Source: Thiohalophilus sp. (GTDB lineage Bacteria > Pseudomonadota > Gammaproteobacteria > UBA6429 > Thiohalophilaceae). Taken from it: a stretch of 64,000 bases of DNA. Location of the stretch: the NCBI RefSeq assembly GCF_034522235.1, contig NZ_JAXHLN010000003.1, forward strand, positions 1,488,001 through 1,552,000. Reading direction: 5' to 3'. The notes under the pieces are model-generated. The model saw nothing but the letters and a program-made list of their open reading frames with translations. It was not told the DNA's origin and ran no database searches. Below, one piece after another: positions 29,936 through 55,410 of this stretch (its first letter is position 1; every line of letters begins with the position of its first letter). Position numbers and translations under genes: made by a program.

Positions 29936-31924
29936 AGAAGTTGGTAGTTTGCAGTCGCAGTTGGCAGCCCTGGCCTTCGGCCGGGACGAGGGACGAGGAA
30001 AATCTACACCGTGTTGGCCCTGGTCGGTAGGAGCGGGCTTTGACCGCGATGGGCGTGTCTGTTCCCGTGATCTCTCGCGCCGGAGGCGCTCCTACAATCT
30101 CTGAATGTCGAGTTATAAGATGCTTTCCTCGTACCTCGTCACTCGTCCCTCGACACTGCGTCCGGAGGACGCCGGGAGCGGGCTTTGACCGCGACCCCGG
30201 CACGGCAATCGCGCCCGCGGGGCGCTCCTACAGGTCCTTCAGGCGCTGGGCGCCTGAAGGACAGGGCCGAGGAACGAGGAACGAGGAAGGAACAATCCAG
30301 CCCACCCGATTTGTAGGAGCGACTACGCCGCGATGGGCCTTGCAAGAGCGAAGTTGGCAGTTTGCAGTCGGCAGTTGGCAGCTATGGCCTTCGGCCGGGA
30401 CGAGGGACGAGGGACGAGTTACGAGGGACGAGGAAAATCTACACCGGGTTTACCTGGTCGGTAGGAGCGGGCTTTGACCGCGATGGGCGTGTCTGTTCCC
30501 GTGATCTCTCGCGCCGGAGGCGCTCCTACAAGCTCTGAATGCCGGGTTATAAGATGCTTTCCTCGTACCTCGTCACTCGTACCTCGACACTGCGTCCGGA
30601 GGACGCCGGGAGCGGGCTTTGACCGCGATCCCGGCACGGCAATCGCGCCCGCGGGGCGCTCCTACAGGTCCTTCAGGCGCTGACGCGCCTGAAGGACAGG
30701 GCCGAGGTACGAGGGCCGAGGAACGAGGAAGGAACAATCCAGCCCACCCGATTTGTAGGAGCGGCTGCGCCGCGATGGGCCTTGCAAGAGCGAAGTTGGC
30801 AGTTTGCAGTCGGCAGTTGGCAGCTATGGCCTTCGGCCGGGACGAGGGACGAGTTACGAGGGACGAGGAAAATCTACACCGGGTTTACCTGGTCGGTAGG
30901 AGCGGGCTTTGACCGCGATGGGCGTGTCTGTTCCCGTGATCTCTCGCGCCGGAGGCGCTCCTACAAGCTCTGAATGCCGGGTTATAAGATGCTTTCCTCG
31001 TACCTCGTCACTCGTACCTCGACACTGCGTCCGGAGGACGCCGGGAGCGGGCTTTGACCGCGATCCCGGCACGGCAATCGCGCCCGCGGGGCGCTCCTAC
31101 AGGTCCTTCAGGCGCTGACGCGCCTGAAGGACAGGGCCGAGGTACGAGGGCCGAGGAACGAGGAAGGAACAATCCAGCCCACCCGATTTGTAGGAGCGGC
31201 TGCGCCGCGATGGGCCTTGCAAGAGCGAAGTTGGCAGTTTGCAGTCGGCAGTTGGCAGCTATGGCCTTCGGCCGGGACGAGGGACGAGTTACGAGGGACG
31301 AGGAAAATCTACACCGGGTTTACCTGGTCGGTAGGAGCGGGCTTTGACCGCGATGGGCGTGTCTGTTCCCGTGATCTCTCGCGCCGGAGGCGCTCCTACA
31401 AGCTCTGAATGCCGGGTTATAAGATGCTTTCCTCGTACCTCGTCACTCGTACCTCGACACTGCGTCCGGAGGACGCCGGGAGCGGGCTTTGACCGCGATC
31501 CCGGCACGGCAATCGCGCCCGCGGGGCGCTCCTACAGGTCCTTCAGGCGCTGACGCGCCTGAAGGACAGGGCCGAGGTACGAGGGCCGAGGAACGAGGAA
31601 GGAACAATCCAGCCCACCCGATTTGTAGGAGCGGCTGCGCCGCGATGGGCCTTGCCAGGCGGCACGATCGGTCGCCGATGAAATCGCCTCCCACAAACCC
31701 GGGGCCTGTGTTGCCGTTGTGGGAGGGATTTTCAGCCGCGACACTCTAAATCGTGCGGCACGGTCGCAATTTCTGAGTGTTTGGAAATAAGGTATTTTGC
31801 TCCTCGTCACTCGTTACTCGTACCTCGACACTGCGTCCGGAGGACGCCGGGAGCGGGGTTTGGCCGCGACCCCGATACCGGCACGGCAATCGCGCCCGCG
31901 GGGCGCTCCTACAACTGCCATCTG
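29936..31924. repeat. Superarray: about 3.7 copies of a 435-base composite REP module
   Basis: A composite of two REP-like palindromes (GTAGGAGCGCCTCCGGCGCG type and GTAGGAGCGCCCCGCGGGCG type, here in reverse orientation), CTCGTCC/GACGAGG heptamers, the hairpin CTTCAGGCGC / GCGCCTGAAG, and TTGGCAG units repeats with a 435-base period (equivalent points at 30039, 30474, 30909, 31344). Copies 2 and 3 look identical; the first is slightly diverged; the last ends near 31650 and joins a GTAGGAGGG-type REP (31665-31745), then another partial module to 31915. No gene is supported. Confidence 0.92.
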
Positions 31925-36890: not shown

Positions 36891-38437
36891 GAGCGCCTCC
36901 CGGCGTCCTCCGGACGCAGTGTCGAGGTACGAGTGACGAGGTACGAGCAAAGCACCTTATAACTCGACATTCAGATATTGTAGGAGCGCCTCCGGCGCGA
37001 CCGACGACCCGTGCCGCCCGATTAGAGTGTCGCGGCTGAAAGCCCCTCCCACAATAGTAAAACAGGTCCTGGCTTTGTGGGAGGCGATTCCATCGGCGAC
37101 CGATCGTGCCGCCCGGCAAGGCCCATCGCGGCGTAGTCGCTCCTACAAATCGGGTGGGCTGGATTGTTCCTTCCTCGTAACTCGTTCCTCGTCCCTGTCC
37201 TTCAGACGCACCAGCGCCTGAAGGACCTGTGTAGGAGCGCCCCGCGGGCGCGATTGCCGGCCGGTGCCGGGATCGCGGTCAAAGCCCGCTCCCGGCATCC
37301 TCCGGACGCAGTGTCGAGGGGCGAGTGACGAGGTACGAGGAAAGACCTCATAACTCGATATCAGATATTGTAGGAGCGCCTCTGGCGCGAGAGATCACGG
37401 GAACAGACCCACCCATCGCGGTCAAAGCCCGCTCCTACCGACCAGGCCAACACGGCGTGGATTTTCCTCGTCCCTCGTCCCCTGTCCTTCAGACGCGCCA
37501 GCGCCTGAAGGACCTGTAGGAGCGCCCCGCGGGCGCGATTGCCGGCCGGTGCCGGGATCGCGGTCAAAGCCCGCTCCTACCGACCAGGCCAACCCGGTGT
37601 AGATTTTCCTCGTCCCTCGTCACTCGTTCCTCGTCCCTGTCCTTCAGACGCGCCAGCGCCTGAAGGACCTGTAGGAGCGCCCCGCGGGCGCGATTGCCGG
37701 CCGGTGCCGGGATCGCGGTCAAAGCCCGCTCCCGGCATCCTCCGGACGCAGTGTCGAGGGGCGAGTGACGAGGTACGAGGAAAGACCTCATAACTCGATA
37801 TCAGATATTGTAGGAGCGCCTCTGGCGCGAGAGATCACGGGAACAGACCCACCCATCGCGGTCAAAGCCCGCTCCTACCGACCAGGCCAACACGGCGTGG
37901 ATTTTCCTCGTCCCTCGTCCCCTGTCCTTCAGACGCGCCAGCGCCTGAAGGACCTGTAGGAGCGCCCCGCGGGCGCGATTGCCGGCCGGTGCCGGGATCG
38001 CGGTCAAAGCCCGCTCCCGGCATCCTCCGGACGCAGTGTCGAGGGGCGAGTGACGAGGTACGAGGAAAGACCTCATAACTCGATATCAGATATTGTAGGA
38101 GCGCCTCTGGCGCGAGAGATCACGGGAACAGATACGCCCATCGCGGTCAAAGCCCGCTCCTACAAATCGGGTGGGCTGGATTGTTCCTTCCTCGTTCCTC
38201 GGCCCTTGTACCTCGGCCCTGTCCTTCAGGCGCGTCAGCGCCTGAAGGACCTGCTTCGCCGCACTTTATACTGCCAACTGCGGCTGCGAACTGCCAACTT
38301 TGCTCTTGTAAGGCCCATCGCGGTCAAAGCCCGCTCCTACAAATCTGGCGGATTGGGGTTATCTCCTCGTCCCTCGTCCCGGCTGGGCTGCCAACTGCCA
38401 ACTGCCAACTGCCGACTGCCTACTTCGCTCTTGTAGG
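36855..38437. repeat. Composite REP superarray downstream of vapC
   Basis: Modules run rightward: GTAGGAGCGCCTCCGGCGCG near 36980, a reversed GTAGGAGGG-type REP at about 37028-37100, then GTAGGAGCGCCCCGCGGGCG at 37232, 37517, 37673 and 37957 with GTAGGAGCGCCTCTGGCGCG copies at 37369, 37809 and 38095. CTCGTCC heptamers and the CTTCAGGCGC hairpin separate them; CTGCCAA units close the array. The segments 37232-37516 and 37673-37956 are near-identical. No gene is supported. Confidence 0.9.
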
Positions 38438-39367: not shown

Positions 39368-40396
39368 AGAAAGTCAGCAGTTTACAGCTGGCAGTCGGCA
39401 GTTGTAGAAGAACACCTGTGAGAATGACTTCGGGGCGACAGATCGTGCCGCCCGGCAAGGCCCATCGCGGCGCAGCCGCTCCTATAAATCGGGTGGGCTG
39501 GATTGTTCCTTCCTCGTCCCTCGTCCCTCGTCCCTGTCCTTCAGACGCACCAGCGCCTGAAGGACCTGTGTAGGAGCGCCCCGCGGGCGCGATTGCCACG
39601 GCCGATGCCGGGATCGCGGTCAAAGCCCGCTCCCGGCGTCCTCCGGACGCAGTGTCGAGGTACGAGTGACGAGGTACGAGGAAAGACCTTATAACTCGAT
39701 ATTCAGAGCTTGTAGGAACGCCTCTGGCGCGAGAGATCACGGGAACAGACACGCCCATCGCGGTCAAAGCCCGCTCCTACCGACCAGGCCAACCCGGTGT
39801 AGATTTTCCTCGTCCCTCGTCACTCGTCCCTCGTCCCTGTCCTTCAGACGCGCCAGCGCCTGAAGGACCTGTGTAGGAGCGCCCCGCGGGCGCGATTGCC
39901 ACGCCGATGCCGGGATCGCGGTCAAAGCCCGCTCCCGGCGTCCTCCGGACGCAGTGTCGAGGTACGAGTGACGAGGTACGAGGAAAGACCTTATAACTCG
40001 ATATTCAGAGCTTGTAGGAACGCCTCCGGCGCGAGAGATCACGGGAACAGACACGCCCATCGCGGTCAAAGCCCGCTCCTACCGACCAGGCCAACCCGGT
40101 GTAGATTTTCCTCGTCCCTCGTCACTCGTACCTCGTCCCTGTCCTTCAGACGCGCCAGCGCCTGAAGGACCTGTGTAGGAGCGCCCCGCGGGCGCGATTG
40201 CCGCGTCGATGCCGTGTTCGCGGTCAAAGCCCGCTCCTACCGACCAGGCCAAACCCGGTGTAGATTTTCCTCCTCCCTCGTAACTCGTCACTCGTCCCGG
40301 CCGAAGGCCAGGGCTGCCGACTGCCAACTTAGATATAAAAAACAACACTTTACACTCCTGCAACATTTGCCTAGACTTGCGTTCAAGTCTTGAACA
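39368..40396. repeat. Composite REP superarray between relE-like toxin and the EPS leader
   Basis: TTGGCAG-type units (39375-39400), then GTAGGAGCGCCCCGCGGGCG at 39570, 39873 and 40176, GTAGGAACGCCTCTGGCGCG-type units at 39711 and 40014 (303-base period), CTCGTCC heptamers and CTTCAGACGC hairpins, ending with TGCCGACTGCCAACTT near 40328. 40332-40396 shows nothing recognisable. No gene. Confidence 0.88.
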
Positions 40397-40471
40397 TACT
40401 GGCCGCTAAAGGCCAGTAGACCCGCGATGAGTCAGGGCATGCAGCCTTTAGAGGCGCTGCCGCATCGCGGA
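40397..40471. other. Two strong hairpins upstream of the EPS promoter
   Basis: Hairpin 1: TACTGGCC / GGCCAGTA (40397-40404, 40411-40418), loop GCTAAA. Hairpin 2: outer CCGCGATG / CATCGCGG (40422-40429, 40463-40470) enclosing GCAGC / GCTGC (40441-40445, 40456-40460). They lie just before the candidate promoter and may be part of a longer leader or a dispersed element. Confidence 0.65.
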
Positions 40472-40473
40472 AT

Positions 40474-40503
40474 TTGAGCCAAGTTGTTGATTTTATTTAT
40501 GCT
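40474..40503 (+). promoter_or_regulatory. Candidate promoter of the EPS operon
   Basis: TTGAGC (40474-40479), 18-base spacer, TATGCT (40498-40503). Transcription would begin about 40510 and meet the ops element within roughly 10-20 bases. Hexamers are moderate matches; the call depends on the ops position. Confidence 0.4.
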
Positions 40504-40519
40504 GTACCCTGCACGGCAG

Positions 40520-40532
40520 GGCGGTAGCGTGC
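40520..40532 (+). promoter_or_regulatory. ops (operon polarity suppressor) element for RfaH recruitment
   Basis: GGCGGTAGCGTGC matches the ops core of E. coli JUMPStart sequences (GGCGGTAGCGTG) exactly, in the rightward orientation. Preceding sequence (GCTGTACCCTGCACGGCAGG) also resembles JUMPStart. RNA polymerase pauses at ops and loads RfaH, which then suppresses termination. rfaH itself is 620 bases downstream, at the head of a more than 22 kb EPS locus. Confidence 0.85.
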
Positions 40533-40544
40533 CCGAATGCCCGG

Positions 40545-40804
40545 GTAGGCTGATAGAGCGAAGCGGTATCTGGCGGATAGATGCCGGACACCGCGGAGTT
40601 TATGCCCGAAGGGTGCTTTGTCCGGCCTACAACTCTAACGGTAATGTTGAATTTTTAATGCTGAATTTTGAATTGATGTGCCCATTGGGCGCTGTTTTTG
40701 ATCGAAACCACGGGATATAGGAGGCCAGCCGCTCCCTGGCCGAATAGAATTCAACATCCAAAATTCATCACTTAAAATTGCCCTTTACTGCCAACTTCGA
40801 TTTA
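40545..40804. repeat. Dispersed palindrome and AT-rich inverted heptamer arrays in the EPS leader
   Basis: 40545-40630: ends GTAGGC / GCCTAC, with an inner perfect stem GCCGGACA / TGTCCGGC (40583-40590, 40619-40626); related to the element near 23428. 40640-40676: TTGAATT heptamers; 40747-40780: reverse-complement ATTCAAC/ATTCAAA units. The marR-type gene starts at 40805, directly after CTGCCAACTT. Confidence 0.8.
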
Positions 40805-41152
40805 ATGTTAACCGACGAAACCCGCTACAAGCTCCTCAAGCTGCTGGAACAAAACCCCGGCATAAATCAGCGTGAGCTGGCGAGCGAGCTGGGCATCAGC
40901 CTGGGCAAGACCAATTACTGCCTCAAGGCGCTGATCGACAAAGGCTGGGTCAAGGCGGGCAATTTCCGCCAGAACCCGCGTAAAATGCACTATGCTTATC
41001 TTTTGACCCCCAGGGGGCTGGAAGAGAAGGCGCGGGTGACCCTGCGCTTTTTAAAGCGCAAGCAGGAAGAATACGAACAACTGGTCGACGAGCTCGAGGA
41101 GCTGCGCGAAGAGGCCGCCGCCCTCAAGCCGCTCGAAGAAGGGGAGGGATAA
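40805..41152 (+). CDS. EPS-associated MarR-family transcriptional regulator
   Basis: A 115-residue winged-helix protein resembling the MarR_EPS family found at the head of exopolysaccharide loci. Seen: LTDETRYKLLKLLEQNPGIN, helix-turn-helix QRELASELGISLGKTNYCLK near residue 27, wing region GNFRQNPRKMHYAYLLTPRG, then a C-terminal coiled coil (about 75-110, rich in Glu). ATG at 40805 is chosen because homology begins there; an earlier in-frame TTG falls in heptamer repeat. Three bases before rfaH, hence co-transcribed. Confidence 0.88.
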   Translation: MLTDETRYKLLKLLEQNPGINQRELASELGISLGKTNYCLKALIDKGWVKAGNFRQNPRKMHYAYLLTPRGLEEKARVTLRFLKRKQEEYEQLVDELEELREEAAALKPLEEGEG

Positions 41153-41155
41153 CCG

Positions 41156-41656
41156 ATGCATCACTGGTACGTGGTCCAGACCAAGCCCAAAAAAGAAAAC
41201 CAGGCCATCGAAAATCTGCTGCGCCAGGGGTATACCGCCTACTGTCCCAAAATGGCCCAGGCCAAACGCCGCCGCCAGCGCTGGCAGAAAATTATCGAGC
41301 CGCTGTTTCCCCGTTACCTGTTCGTGCAACTGGCCATGGGCATCGATGATTTCGGCCCCATCCGCTCCACCCTGGGGGTCCTGAACATGGTGCGCTTCGG
41401 CAACCAGCCGGCGACCATTCCCCAGCAGGCCATCGACACCATCCACCGGCAGGAACAGGTCCTGCTGGGCGAGCCGGGCGATCAACCGGTCTGGCAACCG
41501 GGCGACAAGGTCCAGGTGGTCGAAGGCGCCTTCGCCGGCCTCAACGGCATCTTCGAAAAAGCCTGCGGCACCGAACGCGTCATCGTCCTGCTCGACATGC
41601 TCGGCCGCCAGAACCGCGTCACCGTCGAAACCCACGACGTCGTCCCGGTGATATAA
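41156..41656 (+). CDS. rfaH: Transcription antiterminator RfaH
   Basis: NusG-paralogue of 166 residues. The N-terminal NGN domain reads HHWYVVQTKPKKENQAIENL, then GYTAYCPKMAQAKRRRQRW and PLFPRYLFVQLAM; the C-terminal KOW part has PGDKVQVVEGAFAGLNGIFE. RfaH (rather than NusG) is indicated by length, the TKPKKENQAIENLLRQGY form and the ops element upstream. It should allow transcription to run through the long EPS operon and recruit ribosomes to genes with poor Shine-Dalgarno sites, several of which start inside repeats here. Confidence 0.93.
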   Translation: MHHWYVVQTKPKKENQAIENLLRQGYTAYCPKMAQAKRRRQRWQKIIEPLFPRYLFVQLAMGIDDFGPIRSTLGVLNMVRFGNQPATIPQQAIDTIHRQEQVLLGEPGDQPVWQPGDKVQVVEGAFAGLNGIFEKACGTERVIVLLDMLGRQNRVTVETHDVVPVI

Positions 41657-41956: not shown

Positions 41957-42694
41957 TTGTTTTATACTAACTACGCTTTAAAATCCGCCCTCGCTGTCTT
42001 CACCCTCGTGGTTCTTGCAGCGGTGATTTATGTACTGCTGGCAAAACCCGTCTACGAAAGCCGGGCGGTGGTCAAGATCGGGCAGGTGGGTTCGGTCGGG
42101 CCGGTGGAAGAGGTTGCTGTATTGGGCCAGCGCCTGTCGGCTGAACACCCGGCGCTGACTGCCGTTGAACACGGCAGCGGTGAGGCGCAGAATGTGCTCA
42201 CCTTGATCGTGACAGCAGATGACAGGGAAACCGCCCGGGAAGATATCAATACCATCGTCGACAAGCTGCTGGAGGAGCACCGCAGCCGCTTTCATGCGAT
42301 GCAAACGCCACTGCGACAACGCCGTGATGCACTCGGTATTCGTCTGGCCGATTACCGGCAACAACTGAATGAACTGGATATCCAGGTCAGTCGGCTGCGG
42401 AGTGAGCAACCGGTTCAGGCCGCCGTCCTGATGATTGAAAAGGGCAACGTGACCCGCGCGATCCCGGAACTGGAAGACAAACTGGCCGAACTGGAACAGG
42501 CGCTCGGTGAGCCGCAAACTGTCCGGACCCGGGTGCTGGGTGAACCGACCACAACGGAGACGCCAATCAAACCCCGATCCGCGCTGATCATCACCCTGTC
42601 CATTGTGTCCGGGCTGATACTCGGCATGGTCGCTGCCTTCCTGGCCAAATTGATCGCCAGGGCAAGAACCCCGGCTGCGGGCAAAGAGATGTAA
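41957..42694 (+). CDS. Wzz-type chain-length determinant protein
   Basis: A 245-residue inner-membrane polysaccharide copolymerase-like protein. A first span at about residues 10-29 (SALAVFTLVVLAAVIYVLLA) is followed by KPVYESRAVVKIGQVG, a periplasmic coiled-coil region (about 80-195), a Pro-rich PTTTETPIKPRSA, and a second span (about 206-230). Members usually have 15-30 residues before span 1; here only about nine precede it, no ATG exists, and the best start is a TTG exactly at the end of a CTGCCAA array, so the N-terminus may have been trimmed or replaced by the repeat. It has no kinase domain. Confidence 0.78.
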   Translation: MFYTNYALKSALAVFTLVVLAAVIYVLLAKPVYESRAVVKIGQVGSVGPVEEVAVLGQRLSAEHPALTAVEHGSGEAQNVLTLIVTADDRETAREDINTIVDKLLEEHRSRFHAMQTPLRQRRDALGIRLADYRQQLNELDIQVSRLRSEQPVQAAVLMIEKGNVTRAIPELEDKLAELEQALGEPQTVRTRVLGEPTTTETPIKPRSALIITLSIVSGLILGMVAAFLAKLIARARTPAAGKEM

Positions 42695-48176: not shown

Positions 48177-48353
48177 AAAGTTGGCAGTCGGCAGTTAGCA
48201 GTCGGCAGTTGCCGGAGCGCCTTCGGCGCGACTGAAAATATCTGCAAACTGAAAACTGCCAACTGATGACTTTATCTAAACAAGGGGCGTCCCACACACC
48301 AGAAGCTGCAAACTGAAAACTGCCAACTGATGACTTTATCTAAAACATGGAGG
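48177..48353. repeat. TTGGCAG/CTGCCAA units with a 39-base direct duplication
   Basis: TTGGCAGTCGGCAGTTAGCAG (shown by units) opens the gap; a REP-like GCGCCTTCGGCGCG lies at 48218; the segment CTGCAAACTGAAAACTGCCA followed by ACTGATGACTTTATCTAAA occurs at 48242-48280 and again at 48306-48344, just before copy 2 of the four-helix-bundle gene. Confidence 0.85.
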
Positions 48354-48358
48354 TTAAA

Positions 48359-48706
48359 ATGGCTTTCGAAGACCTGGACGTCTGGAAACGCGCCGCAAGA
48401 CTAAGTTCGGATATCTACACAAACATGCGCGAACTAAAAGATTATAGTTTCAAGGATCAGATAACCCGCTCAAGCTTGTCAGTACCATCGAACATCGCAG
48501 AAGGGATAGAACGCGCAACCGATAAAGAAAAAATGAGATTTCTAAGCATCGCCAAAGGCTCCGCCGCTGAACTACGAACCCAGATCTACATCGGCATGGA
48601 TATCAGCTATATCTCAAAAGATATCGGCACAAAGTGGATTAAAGAAACAAAAGAACTAAGCGCCATGCTAGTCGGCCTGATCAAATCAATAAAAGCAGTT
48701 AATTGA
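48359..48706 (+). CDS. Four-helix-bundle protein (TIGR02436), copy 2
   Basis: A 115-residue member of the four helix bundle family of unknown function: AFEDLDVWKRAARLSSDIYT, FKDQITRSSLSVPSNIAEGI, and IAKGSAAELRTQIYIGMDIS are the conserved helices. GGAGG lies 5-9 bases before the ATG at 48359. The gene is more AT-rich than wzc and ugd on either side and is flanked by CTGCCAA-type arrays on both sides (48177-48345 and 48712-48742). It diverges from copies 1 and 3, so it is not a recent local duplicate. Confidence 0.9.
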   Translation: MAFEDLDVWKRAARLSSDIYTNMRELKDYSFKDQITRSSLSVPSNIAEGIERATDKEKMRFLSIAKGSAAELRTQIYIGMDISYISKDIGTKWIKETKELSAMLVGLIKSIKAVN

Positions 48707-50073: not shown

Positions 50074-50185
50074 CAATGTTGAATTTTGAATTTTGAATTT
50101 TGAATGTTGAATTGTAGTTCGGCTACGCCGCGCTGTATTTTGATTCCTTCAATTCAAAATTCAAAACTCAAAATTAAACAAACAT
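50074..50185. repeat. Inverted AT-rich heptamer arrays upstream of four-helix-bundle copy 3
   Basis: TTGAATT-type units (50076-50113), a spacer with GTAGTTCGGCTACGCCGC, and ATTCAAA-type units (50150-50178). The ribosome site GGAGG follows directly. Confidence 0.9.
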
Positions 50186-50196
50186 TGGAGGTTGTA

Positions 50197-50556
50197 ATGG
50201 CAAGGGAAAATGCCGTTCTGAATAAGTCGTTTGAGTTTGCAATACGCATAGTCAAACTGCATCAATTTCTTGTGAAAGAGAAAAAAGAGTACGTCCTGTC
50301 TAAACAATTGTTGCGAAGTGGTACTTCAATTGGAGCTAATGTTAATGAAGCGCAGGCGGGTCAGAGCAGAAATGACTTCATCAGTAAAATGACGATAGCC
50401 AGTAAAGAGGCCAGAGAAAGCAAATACTGGATAGAGCTACTGGTAGCTACAGGCTATTTGGCTAAAAACGACAAATACATAAATTCATTGCTGAGTGATG
50501 TCTTTGAATTGACAAGAATTCTGACAAGTATAGTGAAAACTACACGAGAGAAGTAA
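50197..50556 (+). CDS. Four-helix-bundle protein (TIGR02436), copy 3
   Basis: A 119-residue four helix bundle protein: NKSFEFAIRIVKLHQFLVKE, LRSGTSIGANVNEAQAGQSR, and ASKEARESKYWIELLVATGY are the conserved segments of the subgroup with the GTSIGANV motif. GGAGG lies 5-9 bases before the ATG. It is bracketed by ATTCAAA arrays on both sides and separates ugd from the UDP-xylose synthase gene, which act in sequence. Function unknown. Confidence 0.9.
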   Translation: MARENAVLNKSFEFAIRIVKLHQFLVKEKKEYVLSKQLLRSGTSIGANVNEAQAGQSRNDFISKMTIASKEARESKYWIELLVATGYLAKNDKYINSLLSDVFELTRILTSIVKTTREK

Positions 50557-54356: not shown

Positions 54357-54754
54357 GCCACGAATTGCACGAAAATCACGAAAAGATTCTTTTTAAGGAA
54401 GAGTCGTATCAAATACAGGGTGCGATTTTTGAAGTATATAATGAAATCGGCCCGGGGTTTCTTGAGGCCGTTTACCAGGAGTGCCTGGAATACGAGCTAG
54501 GTAGTAGAAAAATTCCCTTTACCGCCCAAAAAGAACTCGCTGTTAGCTATAAGGGAAGAAAATTAAATCAGACCTATAAACCCGATCTTGTTTGTTATGA
54601 CAAAATTATCGTAGAAATCAAATCTGTCAGACAGATCAACAATGAGCACCAGGCTCAAATCCTCAACTACCTTAAGGCAACAGGACTCAATCTTGGATTG
54701 CTTGTTAATTTCGGAAGCTATCCAAGAGCAACAATAAAACGATTTGTTTCATAA
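54353..54754 (+). CDS. GxxExxY protein (TIGR04256)
   Basis: A 133-residue member of the GxxExxY family, of unknown function and often described as PD-(D/E)XK-nuclease-like. The signature [17 protein letters not shown] is at about residue 33-49, with [20 protein letters not shown] (conserved D and E-x-K) near 80-100 and [20 protein letters not shown]. The start is TTG, overlapping the fcl stop by four bases. The first dozen codons are CACGAAT-type repeat. The gene is AT-rich compared with fcl. Its final 48 bases are repeated three more times downstream. Confidence 0.87.
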
Positions 54755-55410
54755 AAATGCCACGAATAACACGAACATGCACGAACATGCACGAATCCAT
54801 ACAGATGATAGTCACACAAACCTGGTTAAATAATATGTATCTATTTTTCGTGAATATTCGTGCCTTTCGTGGAAAAAGAGAATGTAAAATTTCGGAAGCT
54901 ATCCAAGAGCAACAATAAAACGATTTGTTTCATGAAAATGCCACGAATAACACGAACATGCACGAATCCATACAGATGATAGTCACACAAACCTGGTTAA
55001 ATAATATGTATCTATTTTTCGTGAATATTCGTGCCTTTCGTGGAAAAAGAGAATGTAAAATTTCGGAAGCTTTCCAAGAGCAACAATAAAACGATTTGTT
55101 TCATGAAAATGCCACGAATAACACGAACATGCACGAATCATATGCAGATGATAGTCACACAAACCTGACCAAATCATATTTATCTATTTTTTTGTGAATA
55201 TTCGTGCCTTTCGTGGCAAAAAGAGAATGTAAAATTTCGGAAGCTTTCCAAGAGCAACAATAAAACGATTTGTTTCATGAAAATGCCACGAATAACACGA
55301 ACATGCACGAATCATATGCAGATGATAGTCACACAAACCTGACCAAATCATATTTATCTATTTTTTCGTGAATATTCGTGCCTTTCGTGGCAAAAAGAGA
55401 ATGTAAAATC
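54707..55410. repeat. Four tandem copies of a 171-181 base unit containing the GxxExxY gene end and CACGAAT inverted arrays
   Basis: Copies begin at 54707 (inside the gene), 54888, 55059 and 55233. Each has the last 16 codons of the GxxExxY gene (reading [15 protein letters not shown] or with F for Y, then stop), CCACGAATAACACGAACATG-type repeats, an AT-rich core, and the inverted TTCGTGAATATTCGTGCC arm. The first copy has a 10-base extra unit. The array ends at about 55410, at the edge of a four-helix-bundle remnant. The 851 bases between GxxExxY gene and gmd contain no other gene. Confidence 0.93.

Follow-up and report, generated by a model that had tools for sequence, protein, structure and literature searches.

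A putative two-lock head of a long EPS locus in Thiohalophilus: a proposed MarR_EPS operator and an ops element

The locus described here resembles the RfaH/ops system of E. coli in that its ops 12-mer is identical and stands ahead of a long surface-polysaccharide locus. In contrast to E. coli, for which a passage of PMC7819879 counts 16 ops sites in MG1655, the present genome has one rfaH, within the locus itself, and one ops, which lies behind a proposed MarR_EPS operator. The locus is also akin to the Bacteroides capsule operons with UpxY, and to the TaA and LoaP systems, in which a NusG paralog is encoded within the operon that it serves (sections of PMC7593976). It differs from UpxY in that its protein belongs to another subfamily and would be recruited by a recognisable ops; the Pfam scans of the locus gave no UpxZ match. 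Sections of PMC7593976 also describe two RfaH clusters, CL4, whose genes adjoin an HTH regulator, and CL7 of Shewanella, which lies within EPS operons; these sections give neither an HTH family name nor the relative position of ops nor an operator. The regulator next to rfaH in our locus belongs to MarR_EPS (TIGR04176), a family found, as here, beside EPS genes, and the operator is apparently the new part. A passage of PMC10599003 reports that MarR_EPS is up-regulated under salt, and the family phrase is also contained in PMC8007912. Among open-access papers, judged mostly from listings, we found no described operator for the family. While resident NusG paralogs have been described before, three features discussed below appear to be new: the operator, the layout with two locks and the altered ops-contact residues. 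The palindrome is thus a proposed DNA site for a named regulator family without a described target in the literature searched, and the layout would unite the control of initiation with antitermination by RfaH in one module for EPS loci.

The features on which the analysis bears are given below, with coordinates in the window, that is, the whole 64-kb stretch of DNA analysed.

40349–40377, + strand: sigma70-like promoter, TTTACA-17-TAGACT, upstream of ops, with 9 of 12 consensus matches
40380–40396, no strand: palindrome C-GTTCA-AGTCT-TGAAC-A, the proposed MarR_EPS operator, its core common to relatives
40520–40532, + strand: ops element, the likely RfaH loading site, an exact match
40805–41152, + strand: marR gene, MarR_EPS (TIGR04176), 115 aa, by profile score and structure model
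41156–41656, + strand: rfaH gene, 166 aa, by TIGR01955 score
41957–63963, + strand: EPS biosynthesis and export genes, which go on past the window (L116) for about another 17.5 kb

The sequence-only reading of this DNA had placed a marR-type gene, rfaH and EPS genes after ops, and this arrangement is borne out by the profile scores and by a long run of EPS genes. According to the Pfam scans, these genes all lie on the + strand; they begin at 41957 and reach about 18.5 kb into L116, some 41 kb from ops. They include genes of the Wzz/GNVR-like, Wzi, phosphatase, Wza, Wzc and UDP-glucose dehydrogenase types, as well as sugar-nucleotide enzymes, an ABC transporter, and glycosyl- and sulfotransferases. 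An Rfam scan returned seven matches up to E = 1, every one under its gathering score and none within 40349–41656. RfaH, MarR_EPS, ops and the extended operator each occur once in the genome, and the nearest named relative, Thiohalophilus thiocyanatoxydans (NZ_SOQX01000002.1), retains the ops-marR-rfaH order.

Is the ops element real? The ops core GGCGGTAGCGTGC at 40520–40532 (+), picked out in the sequence-only reading, is indeed an exact match, and it includes the 12-nt ops12 GGCGGTAGCGTG listed in a section of PMC5995543. A single short motif within 64 kb is, taken alone, weak evidence: GGCGGTAGNNT has one match in the 64-kb window against 0.29 expected, and genome-wide, the looser GGCGGTAGNNTNC does not exceed background, with four matches against eight for the reversed control. 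A search of the genome for other ops copies finds the full 12-mer once and its reversed control not at all. Across the class sample of 274 genomes, drawn evenly, the 12-mer is present somewhere in 111, and whole-genome counts alone are uninformative, because reversed controls are also common there. What decides is the position relative to marR. In 117 distinct MarR_EPS loci (1,035,983 bp; 53 above the family cut-off, 63 further named-record loci and the window), we count 40 exact ops 12-mers, every one of them on the marR strand and none on the opposite one, as compared to a mean of 0.175 and a maximum of 2 for 200 letter-shuffled 12-mers in the same loci. The ops at MarR_EPS loci is not a chance match. 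It stands near marR in 38 of the 117 loci and is absent near marR in 79.

What does ops do at these loci? MarR_EPS is found over its cut-off in 34 genomes of the class sample. We took RfaH as present at 100 bits or more and as absent where there were NusG-level matches only or none, and scored the 34 genomes by hand for an exact ops on the marR strand, from -700 to +1400 of marR. By this score, an exact ops lies near marR in 14 of the 17 genomes with RfaH and in none of the 17 without it, two of which (G275 and G157) have a contig that begins about 250 nt before marR and no exact ops anywhere (Fisher 9.8e-7 by genome; by family, 11/14 vs 0/14, 3.4e-5). The RfaH-positive exceptions are a genome with a one-mismatch ops (G254), one whose contig stops just past rfaH (G137) and one with no ops and a divergent RfaH (G177); a one-mismatch ops also occurs in G229, in which no RfaH was detected. 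Since ops at MarR_EPS loci accompanies RfaH, recruitment of RfaH is its likely role.

The same comparison bears on the idea that ops is the binding site of MarR_EPS itself. This idea draws on the inverted CACG...CGTG that flanks the ops core in the window, and on the 15 of 38 loci in which ops lies near marR with rfaH not close; it is disfavoured by the lack of any exact ops near marR in the RfaH-less MarR_EPS genomes of the class sample. Nor is the flanking repeat general: beside the core, relatives have only GGYAG before it and CCTGAA after it in common, and the idea that CACG...CGTG is a conserved hairpin or a MarR site was discarded because the repeat is not general outside the family. Of the JUMPStart-like surroundings noted in the sequence-only reading, likewise no more than these two strings is common to relatives. 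A MarR_EPS site at ops is extremely improbable.

Within the window's own family, 22 loci besides the window were compared. Twelve have an exact ops near marR and two a one-mismatch ops; five end too early to tell (L066, L067, L069, L071 and L079, the last about 0.27 kb past rfaH). In L077, L078 and L084, marR-rfaH is present with no ops within 5 kb, and their genomes each carry one exact ops elsewhere; in the genome of L078, this copy is some 13 kb further along and follows another operator by 97 nt. Such a second operator-ops pair in a relative, 97 nt apart and away from marR-rfaH (L155:1404–1512), hints at another promoter subject to both locks.

The rfaH product scores 158.1 bits to the TIGR01955 RfaH model (cut-off 144.5) and 86.8 bits to the UpxY model NF033644, below the cut-off of 100; it is the sole RfaH of the genome besides one NusG-level match. 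In comparison with the E. coli protein, it keeps the equivalents of K10, R23, Q24, T72, E48, F56, R138 and F130. The ops-contacting side chains of E. coli RfaH are K10, H20, R23 and R73, as set out in a section of PMC5995543, and the contacts are changed here, with N20, R70 and L73 in place of H20, N70 and R73. An alignment of 24 sequences shows N20 in 20 of them, R70 in 22 and R73 in 1; in another set of 25 sequences, which overlaps the first in part, the corresponding counts are 19, 21 and 12. The ops-contact residues characterise the E. coli protein and are no part of the TIGR01955 family model; the present protein scores above the cut-off of this model with its changed contacts, and we therefore regard it as a variant and do not exclude it from RfaH. 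With ops unchanged beside N20, L73 and R70, the same element is probably read by an altered contact set, and the recognition of ops may not strictly need H20 and R73. As regards an autoinhibited alpha-hairpin C-terminal domain, E48 and the equivalents of R138 and F130 are retained, whereas AlphaFold2 predicts a beta KOW for this domain, a model that speaks neither for nor against a fold switch.

The marR product scores 157.2 bits to the TIGR04176 MarR_EPS model (cut-off 88). Its start is taken as the ATG at 40805, in a reading frame open from the TTG at 40778. The structure model (mean pLDDT 87.9) consists of a winged helix and one long C-terminal helix, and the structural matches listed are MarR-type regulators, with modest TM-scores of 0.65 at best. 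With this single protein as the query, no relative was found in viral contigs.

Where does MarR_EPS bind? Just 3′ of the sigma70-like -10 box lies the palindrome YGTTCA-N5-TGAACR, at 40380–40396 in the window, which we propose as the MarR_EPS operator, apparently unreported. It was first seen by eye in five of the 54 discovery loci, in the leader aligned with that of the congener and read beside four others. The core, GTTCA-N5-TGAAC, is exact in 52 of the 54 loci, the exceptions being L085 and L111. In one of the 52 (L103), the exact copy follows marR, and the copy that precedes marR has one mismatch. In 459,575 bp, there are 57 exact copies with spacer 5 and one with spacer 6, which rules out the latter version, and the counts for spacers 4, 7, 8 and 9 are 0, 0, 1 and 2. 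When all 5-mer palindromes with spacers of 0–14 are scanned in the 600 bp upstream, GTTCA-N5-TGAAC ranks first, with 50 of 54 loci. It is followed by its own overlapping versions, with 24 and 12, and by the next unrelated motif, with 7; the best motif in each of 20 shuffles reached 2–3 loci.

The core recurs in 63 hold-out loci, namely the 79 loci from the best 80 of 362 matches, minus 16 that have the marR core in common with the discovery set (at least one pair of records, L203 and L206, looks like a single sequence). In 57 of the 63, it lies no more than 600 bp upstream of marR, as compared to none for the other spacers from 0 to 12, save spacer 4 with two. In L183, L184 and L213, the core stands ahead of an rfaH that precedes marR; L195 has one mismatch, and L191 and L254 have no core. 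Likewise in the discovery locus L087, a copy of the core also stands before rfaH, which is first or separate there. In 116 sites chosen for an exact core, the flanking and central bases read YGTTCAAYNRTTGAACR. The sequence-only reading had described the locus as gated by the MarR-type protein; with the discovery and hold-out loci together, this gating gains a candidate operator.

The distribution of the site among genomes points in the same direction. The 17-bp form occurs in 31 of the 34 MarR_EPS genomes (49 sites vs 5 for the control) and in 29 of the 30 genomes whose TIGR04176 match is weaker, at 57–79 bits (45 vs 7); these matches are mostly longer winged-helix relatives, along with three short ones (G113, G138 and G214) that are possible MarR_EPS fragments. 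It occurs in 76 of the 210 remaining genomes, with 103 sites vs 94 for the control; in genomes without MarR_EPS or its relatives, the site is at background. In the window's genome, YGTTCAN5TGAACR has one site, as does its reversed control. The shorter palindrome has one further match in the genome (C3:709418), which was set aside, since it is within an ORF and its flanking bases fail.

Might the palindrome belong to another regulator of EPS genes? In favour of this, 13 genomes with longer winged-helix relatives, compared by hand among the matches listed, carry the same site: in 9 it directly precedes the regulator gene, and in 4 its rfaH. However, marR is preceded by the site in nearly every locus, across many families, and genomes lacking MarR_EPS and its relatives are at the control level. 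Moreover, the longer relatives have the same winged-helix domain: the two tested score 61 and 68 bits to TIGR04176, with 37% identity over 83 residues. We consider a separate owner of the site quite unlikely. In a broader reading, to which we give moderate confidence, MarR_EPS and its longer relatives, here mainly in gamma- and betaproteobacteria, would form one regulator group with a fixed operator at the start site of EPS promoters. In this group, ops would lie on the same transcript where RfaH is present, both factors would often be operon-encoded, and the N20/R70 branch of RfaH would recognise the unchanged ops through rewired contacts. Two of the longer relatives (L122:771–1409 and L132:864–1460) have, besides the same winged helix, a C-terminal domain without a Pfam match, which looks Rossmann-like by eye; their loci show the order rfaH-wHTH-ops and the same palindrome.

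Does MarR_EPS repress or activate from this site? In the window, the GTTCA core begins 3 nt after the -10 box. The congener (L065) has TTTACA-17-TACTAT ahead of the operator, and TTTACA also occurs in L107 and L073. In 52 of the 116 sites, the -10 box of a promoter-like pair with at least 8 of 12 matches ends 0–12 nt before the operator, as compared to a mean of 7.2 (sd 2.4, maximum 11) in 50 shuffles. At such sites, the operator covers the start region and therefore fits repression, as an operator across the start region is in a position typical of repressors. Some winged-helix regulators act as activators, and activation by MarR_EPS from the palindrome would be in keeping with this; the site, which often starts a few bases after the -10 box, argues against it, and we regard activation as unlikely. 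The ops starts 139 nt downstream of the start of the operator core, and the operator-ops gap is 63–155 nt in the four loci in which, as in the window, ops leads.

From these elements, their positions and conservation, and their co-occurrence with both genes, we infer a single transcript, as well as binding, repression, recruitment and feedback. It is quite probable, as judged from the DNA, that the region is a two-lock head of one long EPS locus, with MarR_EPS acting at initiation and RfaH/ops at elongation. In the first lock, a MarR_EPS dimer on YGTTCA-N5-TGAACR would lie across the transcription start and repress the promoter, its own gene included. In the second lock, once initiation is freed, the polymerase would pause at ops in the leader, where RfaH would load. 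The loaded RfaH would exclude NusG and Rho and aid translation, which would allow the polymerase to complete the co-directional locus of about 40 kb. Both regulator genes sit inside the cluster that they would lock, and MarR_EPS would thereby exert negative autoregulation and RfaH, to some degree, positive feedback. As ops precedes both marR and rfaH in this genome, RfaH would also act on its own message.

How strong could this feedback be? The sequence-only reading had proposed that rfaH lies inside the operon it activates and forms a positive feedback loop; in the strong form of this model, RfaH would be required for its own expression. The first part gains support in that rfaH is downstream of ops, and ops is upstream of rfaH in the congener and two other loci as well. 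UpxY proteins, too, work on 5′ leaders upstream of upxY, according to a passage of PMC7819879. The strong form is unsupported: the distance from ops to rfaH is no more than some 0.6 kb, without a conserved terminator in it, and the Shine-Dalgarno of rfaH is itself strong (-12.1 kcal/mol). A terminator-like hairpin at 40678–40692 is not supported as an antitermination point: the 2-kb region has one such hairpin, as compared to 2.4 in shuffled sequence, and the leader of L065 has none. A second promoter-like sequence at 40751–40778 could supply marR-rfaH without ops; a scan of the congener leader gave no counterpart of it.

Gene order also weighs against the strong form. Among the 38 loci with ops near marR, the order is marR-rfaH-ops in 16, rfaH-ops-marR in 3 and ops-marR-rfaH in 4 (the window, L065, L073 and L107, two of them in one genus); in the other 15, rfaH is not close, with no rfaH start between -1300 and +1000 of marR. 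Only a minority of loci thus show ops-marR-rfaH, the sole order in which a neighbouring rfaH follows ops; in the 16 and the 3, rfaH is ahead of ops. A strict dependence of rfaH on its own product thus seems rather doubtful, and feedback of some degree would follow from the gene order. The orders with ops before and after rfaH offer a natural comparison for when RfaH feeds back.

A further claim, that many genes of the locus lack good ribosome sites, did not hold up as a special trait of the locus. With longest-ORF starts, marR excepted, ribosome sites weaker than -1 kcal/mol precede 7 of the 20 starts from marR on and 4 of the 18 in the rest of the window, and the medians are -2.8 and -3.75 kcal/mol, respectively (p = 0.58).

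Some other observations concern the surroundings of the locus. Many 7-bp repeats (e.g. CTGCCAA) occupy intergenic gaps, and one lies directly 5′ of the gene at 41957. Long tandem repeats occur at 29986–31655, 37623–38163, 39512–40237 and 54707–55409, with units of 435, 285, 302 and 174 bp, respectively. Two 23S rRNA intervening-sequence proteins (S23, PF05635) are encoded among the EPS genes, at 48347–48706 and 50104–50556, and an IS-type integrase gene lies inside the EPS locus beyond the window, at L116:8799–9626.
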